NCBI RefSeq assembly: GCF_900104655.1
Contig: NZ_FNWD01000002.1
Location: 1,844,246 to 1,908,245 of the forward strand
DNA: 64,000 bases
Direction of reading: 5' to 3'
DNA from: Millionella massiliensis
GTDB taxonomy: Bacteria; Bacteroidota; Bacteroidia; Bacteroidales; Rikenellaceae
In this document: positions 8,572-12,920 of the stretch, in pieces
Layout: every line of letters begins with the position of its first letter
Numbering within the stretch: position 1 is the stretch's first letter
Notes under the pieces: model-generated
Told to the model about the DNA's origin: nothing
Seen by the model: the letters and a program-made list of their open reading frames with translations, nothing else
Databases searched by the model: none
Program-made: the position numbers and the translations under genes

Positions 8572-9024
8572 ATGGCAATAACGTTCAACTCGGAAGACAC
8601 GAAATTCAACATCTCGGGCAGCAAGCGTGACGTTTCGGCCTGGGTACGTGCGGCGGTCGCGGAGGAGGGGTTCAAGGTCGGTGAGATCAATGTGATTTTC
8701 TGCAGCGATCCCTATCTGTTGGAGATCAATCGTCACTACCTTCACCACGACTATTTTACGGACATCATTACGTTTGACTACTGCGAAAACGGTGTCCTGT
8801 CGGGCGATCTGTTCATCAGCGTCGACACGGTCAAGGCCAATTCGGAGGAGTATCAGGTGATGTTCCACGTGGAACTTTTGCGTGTTATTATTCACGGTGT
8901 CATGCATTTGGCCGGGTATAAGGATAAAACCGATCCCGATGCTGCCAAAATGCGTGAACGTGAAAATCACTATCTCGCCAAAGCCCCCGTAGGGCTGCTG
9001 GAGGGAGTAAACTACCGTAAGTAG
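8572..9024 (+). CDS. ybeY: Endoribonuclease YbeY
   Basis: 150 residues, usual YbeY size. YbeY is a metal-dependent RNase acting in 16S rRNA 3' maturation and ribosome quality control. The metal site is seen as IIHGVMHLAGYKDKTD near residues 106-121. The first two histidines of HxxxHxxxxxH are present, but the third is Asp (or is supplied by a nearby residue), which differs from the E. coli site. Upstream, ITFDY at about residue 64-68 is the family's conserved strand. The coding sequence carries a parS-like palindrome at 8861-8876, read in frame as MFHVEL. mnmG follows after 2 bases. Confidence 0.93.
   Translation: MAITFNSEDTKFNISGSKRDVSAWVRAAVAEEGFKVGEINVIFCSDPYLLEINRHYLHHDYFTDIITFDYCENGVLSGDLFISVDTVKANSEEYQVMFHVELLRVIIHGVMHLAGYKDKTDPDAAKMRERENHYLAKAPVGLLEGVNYRK
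8861..8876. promoter_or_regulatory. parS-like ParB-binding site 1 (inside ybeY)
   Basis: TGTTCCACGTGGAACT differs at the last base only from the perfect palindrome TGTTCCACGTGGAACA found at 10916. parS sites in most bacteria follow TGTTnCACGTGnAACA. The match is within a coding sequence, as many parS sites are. It is one of three such sites in about 4 kb. Confidence 0.75.
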
Positions 9025-9026
9025 AG

Positions 9027-10910
9027 ATGAAATTCGAATACGATATTGTGGTGGTCGGCGGAGGTCATGCCGGTTGCGAAGCGGCTGCAGCTGCTGCCAA
9101 TATGGGCATGCAAACGCTGCTCGTGACCATGGATATGAACAAACTGGCCCAAATGTCCTGTAATCCGGCCGTGGGAGGCGTTGCAAAGGGGCAGATTGTC
9201 CGCGAAATCGACGCGTTGGGCGGTCAGATGGCCATTGTAACCGACCGGACGACGCTTCAATTCCGCATGCTGAACCGTTCGAAAGGGGCCGCCATGTGGA
9301 GCCCGCGGGCACAGTGCGATAAGTATGCCTTTTCGCGGGAGTGGAGGAGGGTGCTGGACTCGACGGACAACCTGTACATGTGGCAGGATAGCGTAACGGG
9401 ACTGCTGCTCTCCGATGATAATAAGCGGATTGAGGGGGTCGTGACGCAACTCGGCGTGCGTTTCCGGGCGCGTCGCGTTATCCTGACCAACGGAACTTTC
9501 CTGAACGGTCTGATGCATGTGGGGACGGCGCAGGCCGAGGGAGGCCGATCCGGCGATATGCCGAGTCATGGACTCTCCGAGCAGCTCTGCCAGATCGGCT
9601 TTGAAGTCGACCGTATGAAGACCGGGACGCCGGCCCGTCTTGATGCGCGAACGATCGATTTTGCACGTCTCGAACCACAGTATGGTGACGAGCAGCCCGA
9701 AAAATTTTCTTTTCTCCCCTCGGTCGAGCCTGTTCCGTTCGAGCGTCAAATGCCTTGTTATCTGGTCTATACGTCGCTGCGGGTGCACGATACGCTGCGT
9801 ACGGGTTTCGACCGTTCGCCGCTTTTCACCGGTGTTATCCGAGGCAAAGGGCCCCGTTATTGTCCCAGTATAGAGGACAAGTTGCGCACGTTTGCCGATA
9901 AGGAGCAGCACCAGTTGTTTCTTGAACCGGAGGGGCGATCGACGAATGAATACTACCTGAACGGGTTTTCGTCGTCGCTGCCCTGGGAGGTGCAGGTGGC
10001 GGCCATGCAGCAGATCGAAGGACTCGAAAATGTCCAGATTTACCGTCCCGGTTATGCCATCGAATACGACTATTTTCCGCCGACGCAGCTCTACCATACG
10101 CTCGAAACCAAGCGGGTAGAGGGGCTCTATTTTGCCGGTCAGATCAATGGTACGACCGGTTACGAGGAGGCTGCGGCACAGGGGCTGATGGCCGGAATCA
10201 ACGCGGTGCTTAGCCTGCGTGGCGAAGAGCCCTTTATTTTGGGCCGCGACGAGGCTTACATCGGCGTGTTGATCGATGACCTGGTGACCAAGGGGGTCGA
10301 TGAGCCCTATCGTATGTTTACGAGTCGTGCTGAATACCGCATCCTGTTGCGTCAGGATAATGCTGATCGCCGTTTGACACCGGCCGGCCGACGGATCGGT
10401 CTGGTGACGGACGAGCGCTGGGAGGCTTTTACGGCTTCAGAAGGGCGTATCGAGGCACTCACCGAGCGGCTGAATGAGATGAATGTTGCACCCGAGGAGG
10501 TGAATGGTTATCTGGCTTCGGTCGGCGAGTCGCCGATCACTCAGCGGCGCAAGGCGGTCGAACTTCTGTTGCGTACCGGTGTAACCCTTGCCGCGATGGC
10601 CGATGCTTTGCCCGAATTGAGGCGTTTTATGCTGGAAATCGGCGCAGTGAAGGAGGATGTCCAGGCGGTCGAGATTGCGGCGAAATATGCCGGCTATATC
10701 GAGCGAGAACGTATGGTGGCCGAGAAGATGAAGCGGCTCGAAGGAATCAAGATCCCCGTCGGGTTTGATTTTGAGGCGCTGCATTCACTCTCTATCGAGG
10801 CGCGTCAGAAACTGACCCGTATCCGGCCGCTTACGATTGCTCAGGCATCGCGCATTCCGGGGGTTTCGCCGGCTGATATTAACGTTTTGCTGGTCTATTT
10901 CGGTCGGTAG
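9027..10910 (+). CDS. mnmG: tRNA uridine-34 modification enzyme MnmG (GidA)
   Basis: 627 residues, normal length. MnmG is the FAD-binding half of the MnmE-MnmG complex that makes the 5-carboxymethylaminomethyl group on U34 of several tRNAs. The N-terminus has the FAD dinucleotide loop VVGGGHAGCEAAAAAANMG. Further family hallmarks are SCNPAVGGVAKGQIVREIDALGG, MKTGTPARL, and GLYFAGQINGTTGYEEAAAQG near residue 370. The C-terminal helical domain ends in RIPGVSPADINVLLVYFGR. It sits 2 bases after ybeY. In many bacteria this gene (gidA) lies near the replication origin, which agrees with the parS-like sites on both sides of it. Confidence 0.97.
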   Translation: MKFEYDIVVVGGGHAGCEAAAAAANMGMQTLLVTMDMNKLAQMSCNPAVGGVAKGQIVREIDALGGQMAIVTDRTTLQFRMLNRSKGAAMWSPRAQCDKYAFSREWRRVLDSTDNLYMWQDSVTGLLLSDDNKRIEGVVTQLGVRFRARRVILTNGTFLNGLMHVGTAQAEGGRSGDMPSHGLSEQLCQIGFEVDRMKTGTPARLDARTIDFARLEPQYGDEQPEKFSFLPSVEPVPFERQMPCYLVYTSLRVHDTLRTGFDRSPLFTGVIRGKGPRYCPSIEDKLRTFADKEQHQLFLEPEGRSTNEYYLNGFSSSLPWEVQVAAMQQIEGLENVQIYRPGYAIEYDYFPPTQLYHTLETKRVEGLYFAGQINGTTGYEEAAAQGLMAGINAVLSLRGEEPFILGRDEAYIGVLIDDLVTKGVDEPYRMFTSRAEYRILLRQDNADRRLTPAGRRIGLVTDERWEAFTASEGRIEALTERLNEMNVAPEEVNGYLASVGESPITQRRKAVELLLRTGVTLAAMADALPELRRFMLEIGAVKEDVQAVEIAAKYAGYIERERMVAEKMKRLEGIKIPVGFDFEALHSLSIEARQKLTRIRPLTIAQASRIPGVSPADINVLLVYFGR

Positions 10911-12782: not shown

Positions 12783-12904
12783 GTGAGCGCTTCGGGGGCG
12801 TAAGACCGGGCAGCCGTGATTCCGTTGCGATGTCGTGTCTTGTGAGTGGAGCAGTGCGGAGCCAGGGGTGTAACGGCAGTTGGCTGTGCAAGTTGAATTG
12901 AAAT

Positions 12905-12920
12905 TGTTTCACGTGGAACA
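12905..12920. promoter_or_regulatory. parS-like ParB-binding site 3
   Basis: TGTTTCACGTGGAACA is one base from the palindrome at 10916 and one base from the classical TGTTTCACGTGAAACA. It ends 2 bases before the start codon of the DUF4435 gene, so bound ParB would cover its translation start region. Confidence 0.8.

Follow-up and report, generated by a model that had tools for sequence, protein, structure and literature searches.

A probable origin-proximal parS cluster around mnmG in Millionella massiliensis, at an address that appears to recur across much of the Bacteroidota

Three 16-bp palindromes that lie within 4 kb of one another on the chromosome of Millionella massiliensis very probably constitute the parS cluster, or centromere, of this chromosome, and would load the single ParB protein that the genome encodes. 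The palindromes are strung around mnmG in a 64,000-nucleotide stretch of contig NZ_FNWD01000002.1 (the window), in what is likely to be the neighborhood of the replication origin as judged from sequence features. The element is a real one of an ordinary kind, very likely a ParABS centromere, that is found at an unusually clear phylum-wide address, with one of its sites carved into a coding gene. The features on which the analysis rests are as follows, in window coordinates.

5177 (C1:1849422), no strand: minimum of the cumulative G-C curve over 400 kb around the locus (running sum, 1.66-2.06 Mb)
8572..9024, + strand: ybeY, rRNA maturation endoribonuclease (Pfam PF02130, 9.5e-27), host of site 1
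8861..8876, no strand: putative parS site 1, TGTTCCACGTGGAACT, one mismatch to TGTTNCACGTGNAACA, within ybeY codons 97-102 (MFHVEL)
9027..10910, + strand: mnmG/gidA (Pfam PF01134, 2.4e-158), landmark gene of the putative centromere
10916..10931, no strand: putative parS site 2, TGTTCCACGTGGAACA, no mismatches, directly past the mnmG stop codon
11016..12782, + strand: OlsF-like bifunctional acyltransferase (Pfam PF19576 and PF13444), between sites 2 and 3
12905..12920, no strand: putative parS site 3, TGTTTCACGTGGAACA, no mismatches, ending 2 nt ahead of the DUF4435 ATG
12923..13903, + strand: DUF4435 gene, AriB-like (PF14491, 3.4e-36; PADLOC AriB, 4.4e-45), right of site 3

The three palindromes had been proposed in a first-pass annotation of the DNA, and a scan of the window recovered all of them at the same positions with the same spacings of 2055 bp between sites 1 and 2 and 1989 bp between sites 2 and 3. 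When compared with the 16-bp chromosomal parS consensus TGTTNCACGTGNAACA (Livny et al., 2007, as cited in the accessible text of PMC10197239), the sites have one, zero and zero mismatches, respectively. The earlier description of the copy at 10916 as perfect and of that at 8861 as a one-base variant therefore stands, whereas the copy at 12905, which had also been called a variant, is without mismatch because its variant base falls on an N in the consensus. The location of site 1 inside ybeY where it is read as MFHVEL, of mnmG between two of the sites, namely 1 and 2, and of site 3 two bases before the DUF4435 gene were similarly correct. The window was also said to contain no further close match, and the remainder of its 14 CACGTG sequences indeed all have at least three mismatches. 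The scan with TGTTNCACGTGNAACA returned an additional three-mismatch site at 2105, and dinucleotide shuffles of the window already give a mean of 1.76 matches at up to three mismatches, so that it is the three close sites that carry the signal.

The genome that was scanned comprises 2,888,820 bases (2.89 Mb) in two contigs and is 92% complete. At up to one mismatch it yielded four matches, which are the three window sites and a site with a CAGGTG core at C1:81524; matches of the CACGTG type at this stringency are restricted genome-wide to 8861, 10916 and 12905. A control search of the whole genome with the backward pattern produced no matches at up to one mismatch. When two mismatches were permitted, 13 matches were obtained versus 8 in the backward control, and the weaker parS-like matches are therefore near background. 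The chance that three randomly placed sites all fall within 4.06 kb is ~6e-6, the fourth match at C1:81524 being excluded from this calculation. An even spread of sites over the genome, which had been named beforehand as an argument against a centromere, was not observed: the close sites are confined to 4 kb.

Conservation of the sites was assessed in the eight genomes of the genus set g1, comprising that of the window and G001-G007, all of which possess parS sites. The ybeY site (site 1) and the site that follows mnmG (site 2) each occur in all eight genomes, and the interval between site 3 and the DUF4435 ATG is exactly 2 nt in six of the seven genomes in which this gene was seen; G007 was excluded from the latter count as its contig ends before the DUF4435 place. 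DUF4435 follows the acyltransferase gene on one contig in the window's genome and in G002, G003, G005 and G006. A contig break separates the two genes in G004, in which site 3 is present, and DUF4435 is on another contig in G001 with no parS-like site in its 3.7-kb locus. Conservation in relatives, including that of the in-gene copy at 8861, is thus stronger than the first-pass annotation had envisaged, with the same codons occupied in eight of eight genus genomes. Relatives of the genus Alistipes had been suggested for this comparison; the YbeY protein encoded in the window shares 87% identity with that from Rikenella microfusus, and four further close matches also carry the name Rikenella, a genus to which Alistipes is a neighbor in the same family. 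Among the five genomes in which both members of a pair are on one contig, sites 1 and 2 are 2053-2371 bp apart and sites 2 and 3 are 1989-2356 bp apart. The even spacing of ~2 kb that had been viewed as an unusual feature was accordingly discarded as a signal, because the spacing shifts with gene length in the relatives and the evenness is a matter of gene length. A fourth in-gene site, in a gene that we take to be acyl-protein synthetase-like, is found in G002 (one mismatch) and in G006 and G007 (two mismatches), and is absent from the window where the corresponding place (3105 onward) is changed.

The ybeY site looks to be constrained as DNA. At site 1 the sequence is ATG TTY CAC GTG GAA CTN throughout the eight genus genomes, and His-99, Val-100 and Glu-101 are each specified by one codon, CAC GTG GAA, in every genome. 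The lone synonymous change in the Phe codon (TTC/TTT) falls on an N of the consensus, and the Leu codon varies at its third base alone, which is outside the site. Codon invariance in three of three columns at site 1 has a chance of 0.004. As 14 of the 84 amino-acid-invariant degenerate columns in ybeY are codon-invariant, including short runs at 41-42, 44-45 and 77-78, the codon signal at site 1 is modest. At the protein level, FHVEL is present in 64 of the best 120 YbeY relatives among 7,980 matches, many of the FHVEL members being near-identical. The preceding residue is Met (53), Leu (6), Val (4) or Thr (1), and hence in 63 of 64 cases is an amino acid with a codon whose last two bases are TG, which parS demands. 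Among the 56 remaining relatives, Leu occurs at the residue-97 place in one and FH is found in nine. The ybeY genes at the mnmG loci considered below, of which 63 are readable with L094 set aside, encode Met, Leu or Val at residue 97 in no case, His at residue 99 in no case, and Val at residue 100 in one, with Glu-101 in all 63, Leu-102 in 53 and Phe-98 in 42. Site 1 appears to have reused the codons of conserved residues Phe-98, Glu-101 and Leu-102 and to have overwritten the variable positions 97, 99 and 100. Nucleotide sequences were read in the eight genus genomes alone, and beyond the genus we infer the site from the FHVEL peptide.

When 395 genomes of the phylum were searched with a strict nucleotide pattern of the ybeY site, only the window's own genome was retrieved, although the pattern is a narrow one that would miss L094. 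In this distant metagenome-assembled contig, labeled Fluviicola, the MFHVEL codons are identical to those of the genus. The ybeY stretch of L094 holds 15 of 17 ambiguous bases, and phylogeny groups its ybeY with Bacteroidales and its mnmG with Flavobacteriales. Transfer, chimaera or convergence could each account for this case, and a convergent origin of the ybeY site was considered and is not claimed. A tree of 121 YbeY sequences is compatible with more than one number of FHVEL gains.

In E. coli mnmG borders oriC. The placing of parS beside mnmG was examined at 80 mnmG loci, the best of at least 592, that were picked on MnmG similarity alone and of which 79 are labeled as Bacteroidota groups, the exception being L134 which is labeled Limnohabitans. 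A parS site with up to one mismatch is present anywhere in the retrieved DNA at 70 of the 80 loci and no more than 150 bp from one end of mnmG at 69 (58 downstream, 43 upstream, 32 both). The loci contain 164 sites of which 120 fall within 150 bp of mnmG, whereas the backward-pattern control gave no sites in the 1,488,654 bases (1.49 Mb) of these loci. No site was found within 150 bp of mnmG at 11 loci, at 10 of which there is none anywhere in the retrieved DNA; the latter include four loci labeled Saprospiraceae or Lewinellaceae (L113, L118, L131, L135). Within the family to which the window belongs, the pattern is matched with no more than one mismatch in 119 of 120 genomes, the control likewise giving 0-2 matches per genome at this stringency, and mnmG is within ~1.5 kb of parS at 28 of the 30 family loci that were retrieved.

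A less biased check took the first-listed genome of each of 41 families (f2-f42, with f43-f56 left out). The exact sequence TGTTYCACGTGRAACA is present in 28 of the 41 families, represented by one genome each, and was not found in 13; the control was zero in all, and MnmG is present in all 41 genomes. The nearest exact site is within ~510 bp of mnmG in 23 of the 28 genomes (22 within 160 bp), is 7-26 kb from mnmG in G152, G301 and G194, and is on another contig in G135 and G231. The address thus recurs in most Bacteroidota families tested. ParB and DnaA were searched in nine genomes; in the seven where one contig carries both parS and parB, the two are separated by no less than 0.49 Mb, the distances in G125 and G127 being counted round the circle, if circular. 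In G152, dnaA and parS are separated by 35 kb; in G125, dnaA is at the opposite record end, which would probably be nearby on a circular molecule; and in the remaining five genomes, dnaA lies 0.26-1.5 Mb from parS when measured along the contig. Among the literature matches listed, none connects parS to mnmG or gidA in the Bacteroidota. These patterns suggest that mnmG may mark an ancestral origin neighborhood in which the centromere stayed in Bacteroidota after dnaA and parAB moved. On balance we favor the broader proposal that mnmG is the centromere address in this phylum, with parS glued to mnmG across most of its members while dnaA and parAB wandered, and that sites which spread into coding DNA rewrite the host protein, as at residues 97, 99 and 100 of YbeY.

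The assignment of the locus to the likely origin neighborhood derives from nucleotide skew and DnaA-box content. The cumulative skew minimum at 5177 is 3.7 kb to the left of site 1, and all three sites are less than 8 kb from it; as the curve is shallow from approximately window position 0 to 36 kb (about 30 kb), the minimum is not sharp. In twenty 12-kb samples of the chromosome, the lowest cumulative skew values were -0.507 at 1.80 Mb and -0.498 at 1.95 Mb. The minimum therefore falls at the locus and not far from it, the latter having been regarded at the outset as evidence against an origin-proximal position. An AT-rich, DnaA-box-rich intergenic stretch upstream of a gene that we take from its sequence to be ruvB-like provides an oriC candidate; it spans C1:1840.4-1841.0 kb, which places it 3 kb to the left of the window and 12 kb to the left of site 1. 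The candidate contains five DnaA-box-like sites in 600 bp (up to one mismatch, one exact), which is the top count in 400 kb, and 600-bp windows in 20 other 12-kb samples contain at most three such sites. This count is tied with a window at 2041.9 kb, 190 kb away, which detracts from a sharp picture of the origin. G002 has a weaker cluster, with three boxes in 600 bp of which none is exact, at 1183.4-1184.0 kb; its site 1 is at 1195.9 kb, which gives the same cluster-to-site distance as in the window's genome. The local skew minimum in G002 is at 1184314 in the 36 kb examined; its overall skew is weak, and in a sum of 19 of 20 samples, with the 1.17-Mb sample left out, the lowest cumulative value follows the 1.26-Mb sample, next to parS at 1.19-1.20 Mb.

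The dnaA gene of the window's genome is at 773 kb, 1.08 Mb from the parS sites, and the sole ParB gene is at 2766 kb, 0.91 Mb from the sites; therefore, neither is nearby. According to the accessible text of PMC10197239, which concerns 12 gut bacteria including two Bacteroidetes, dnaA typically is used to define the origin, and origins that were located by parS clusters and GC skew do not always coincide with dnaA. The few sites in the M. massiliensis chromosome are clustered within 4 kb at the skew minimum with an oriC candidate 12 kb away. Thus, the original suggestion of an origin-proximal centromere gains support from the confinement of the sites to this locus, from the skew minimum and from the maintenance of the sites in relatives.

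The genome encodes one ParB protein (a single PF02195 match) whose nearest relatives of solved structure are ParB, Spo0J and Noc. The protein carries the CTP motif GERR (GERRFRA) as well as ENIQRE. A ParA-like ATPase with the sequence KGGVGKTT is encoded directly upstream of parB. The best match of this protein to ParA-type NCBIfam models is 1.5e-31, with ParA_partition at 106.6 bits of 180, and no cut-off was reached among the 25 NCBIfam models listed.

The arrangement around the DUF4435 gene could be read differently, with site 3, and perhaps site 2, acting mainly as an operator through which ParB or another protein controls DUF4435 or the OlsF-like gene. The 2-nt distance from site 3 to the ATG is constant in six of six site-bearing genomes though the length and sequence of the upstream intergenic region vary, and site 2 is just upstream of what, by its consensus, we take to be a Bacteroidota-like promoter (TTTG at 10940 and TATATTTG at 10964). 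Regulation of gene expression is also counted among ParB roles in the accessible part of a review (PMC7333895). However, DUF4435 is present in 78 of 80 family genomes, in single copy in all but two, and the 30 DUF4435 loci examined (2.7-3.7 kb each; those of the window, G001 and 28 from other genera) include no parS-like site at up to two mismatches in any of the 29 outside the window's genome. The gene is located away from the parS cluster in G001 and in 8 of the 28 other-genus loci, these being the eight for which both places were listed. Since the other DUF4435 loci examined lack it, site 3 would belong to the place and not to the gene. The earlier idea that one site could block a start codon loses its footing accordingly, although ParB bound at site 3 may have a local effect on DUF4435 expression in this genome; site 3 was rejected as a conserved DUF4435 operator, and control of gene expression is very unlikely to be the main function of the sites. 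The 16-mer of site 3 folded alone yields only -3.4 kcal/mol, which lends little weight to the idea of an mRNA hairpin.

A Noc-like or SMC-loading function in place of ParABS segregation is slightly less probable again. The ParB protein scores higher with the Noc model TIGR04285 (232.1 bits) than with TIGR00180 (176.9 bits), and this preference in bits is a point against the ParABS reading. Nevertheless, the former value is below the Noc cut-off of 315, whereas the latter exceeds its own NCBIfam cut-off of 58.45. The NBS sequence that is recognized by Noc differs from the parS sequence. In an alignment with Noc (7nfu), ParB has KKRSTIANYIRLLRLP...MGHARALL where Noc has KGQSTIANKLRLLKLP...ERHARAL, and the stretch KKRSTIAN in place of KGQSTIAN; when read by eye, the alignment shows R, Y, R and G at the four positions by which parS is discriminated from NBS. 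Under the residue rule in the accessible text of PMC7383237, the R and G at the equivalents of positions 173 and 201 (read by eye) are those of parS specificity, in contrast to Q and R in Noc. As regards SMC loading, no ScpA was detected (0 PF02616 matches in the 92% complete genome) by a search that, when run as a control on 14 known genomes, recovered ScpA from 9 of them. There is therefore no support for the SMC-loading half of the textbook role, which agrees with the report, in the accessible text of PMC10197239, of no known condensin in two gut Bacteroidetes. That the palindromes arose by chance and that the ybeY copy is merely a conserved peptide is the least probable of these alternatives, and is close to negligible. 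It could be argued from the single mismatch and coding location of the copy at 8861, from the 14 CACGTG sequences in the window, and from the other codon-invariant runs in ybeY. Against it stand the unique clustering of the sites, their recurrence at mnmG in many families with zero control matches, the invariant codons of site 1, and the restriction of residue 97 to Met, Leu or Val that is missing from other loci; for sites 2 and 3, conservation already speaks against chance.

The reading of the palindromes as a parS cluster accords with chromosomal ParABS systems in that the sites are 16-bp palindromes, few in number and clustered at the likely origin, in a genome that encodes both a ParA-like protein and a ParB whose specificity residues are of the parS type. 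It departs from these systems in the separation of the sites from parB (0.9 Mb) and from dnaA (1.08 Mb), in the failure to find ScpA, and in the stringing of sites along ybeY, mnmG and DUF4435. The locus shares with the mnmG (gidA)-oriC-parAB neighborhood of other phyla the proximity of mnmG to the likely origin and of parS to mnmG, but parB is at least 0.49 Mb from the sites both here and in seven other Bacteroidota genomes. The ParB protein is homologous to Noc of the Noc/NBS system and has the same kind of DNA-binding domain, but with R/G as specificity residues versus Q/R in Noc. Finally, the DUF4435 protein matches the profile of AriB from PARIS. However, no AriA ATPase was found among its two neighbors, the acyltransferase on the left and a right neighbor without a Pfam match, nor an ATPase domain in the DUF4435 protein itself, and the gene is near-universal in the family, unlike a defense cassette. 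As PARIS is an AriA/AriB pair or its fusion in the accessible text of PMC9122126, DUF4435 was not filed as PARIS. The acyltransferase scores 309.7 bits with the NCBIfam OlsF model, under the cut-off of 620.

We propose that ParB, made 0.9 Mb away, would diffuse as dimers to the three sites, close as CTP clamps at parS, and slide over several kb around ybeY-mnmG-olsF-DUF4435. ParA would move the ParB-parS complex such that the newly copied origin separates first. If ParB slides, several imperfect nearby sites would suffice, and the sites could therefore sit wherever the coding sequence tolerates them.

Although dnaA commonly defines the origin, this gene and the likely origin are 1.08 Mb apart in M. 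massiliensis. The genome is also one in which ParABS appears to operate without ScpA. The presence of parS beside mnmG would furnish a simple sequence marker of the origin and centromere in much of the Bacteroidota, and the ybeY case would exemplify overlapping codes, in which a DNA-binding site dictates amino acids in a conserved enzyme.

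Five DnaA-box-like sites were located within 600 bp in an intergenic region of the contig (C1) from which the window derives (genome G000), and a ruvB-like gene is positioned downstream. Judged from its sequence, the region is likely to be oriC.

G000 C1:1840434-1841009, candidate oriC, AT-rich, intergenic, 3 kb before the window begins

Positions 43400-44400 of the window are strongly AT-rich with one exact DnaA box (C1:1887695).

parS-like sites within genes were also found in other genomes.

L094:1139-1154, site in ybeY identical to that in the window, on a contig labelled Fluviicola
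L178:2392-2407, L186:2550 and L187:20, additional in-gene parS-like site in three genomes of the genus

The ybeY gene of L094 includes many ambiguous bases, and trees conflict for this contig. The additional site in the genus falls on VSRET codons of a gene that we take to be acyl-protein synthetase-like, and is absent from the corresponding place in the window (~3105). Among loci from other genera of the family (L147-L176), a second site, TGTTCCACGTGGAGCA, recurs ~520-780 bp from the first mnmG-side site in many genomes of genus g17. In L147 this second site sits within an ORF, presumably resembling a branched-chain aminotransferase gene, and is a candidate for another coding parS.

Directly behind parS site 2 and ahead of the OlsF-like acyltransferase gene is a promoter-like element that was assigned using what we assume to be the Bacteroidota consensus.

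10940-10971, putative Bacteroidota-like promoter (TTTG, 20 nt, TATATTTG)

A TAnnTTTG element, read by eye, is present in six of the eight genus genomes.

12923-13903, DUF4435 gene, product matching the PARIS effector AriB (PADLOC, 4.4e-45)

As no AriA adjoins this gene among the neighbors that were checked, and as the gene was found in 78 of 80 family genomes, the DUF4435 protein possibly is a housekeeping relative of AriB.
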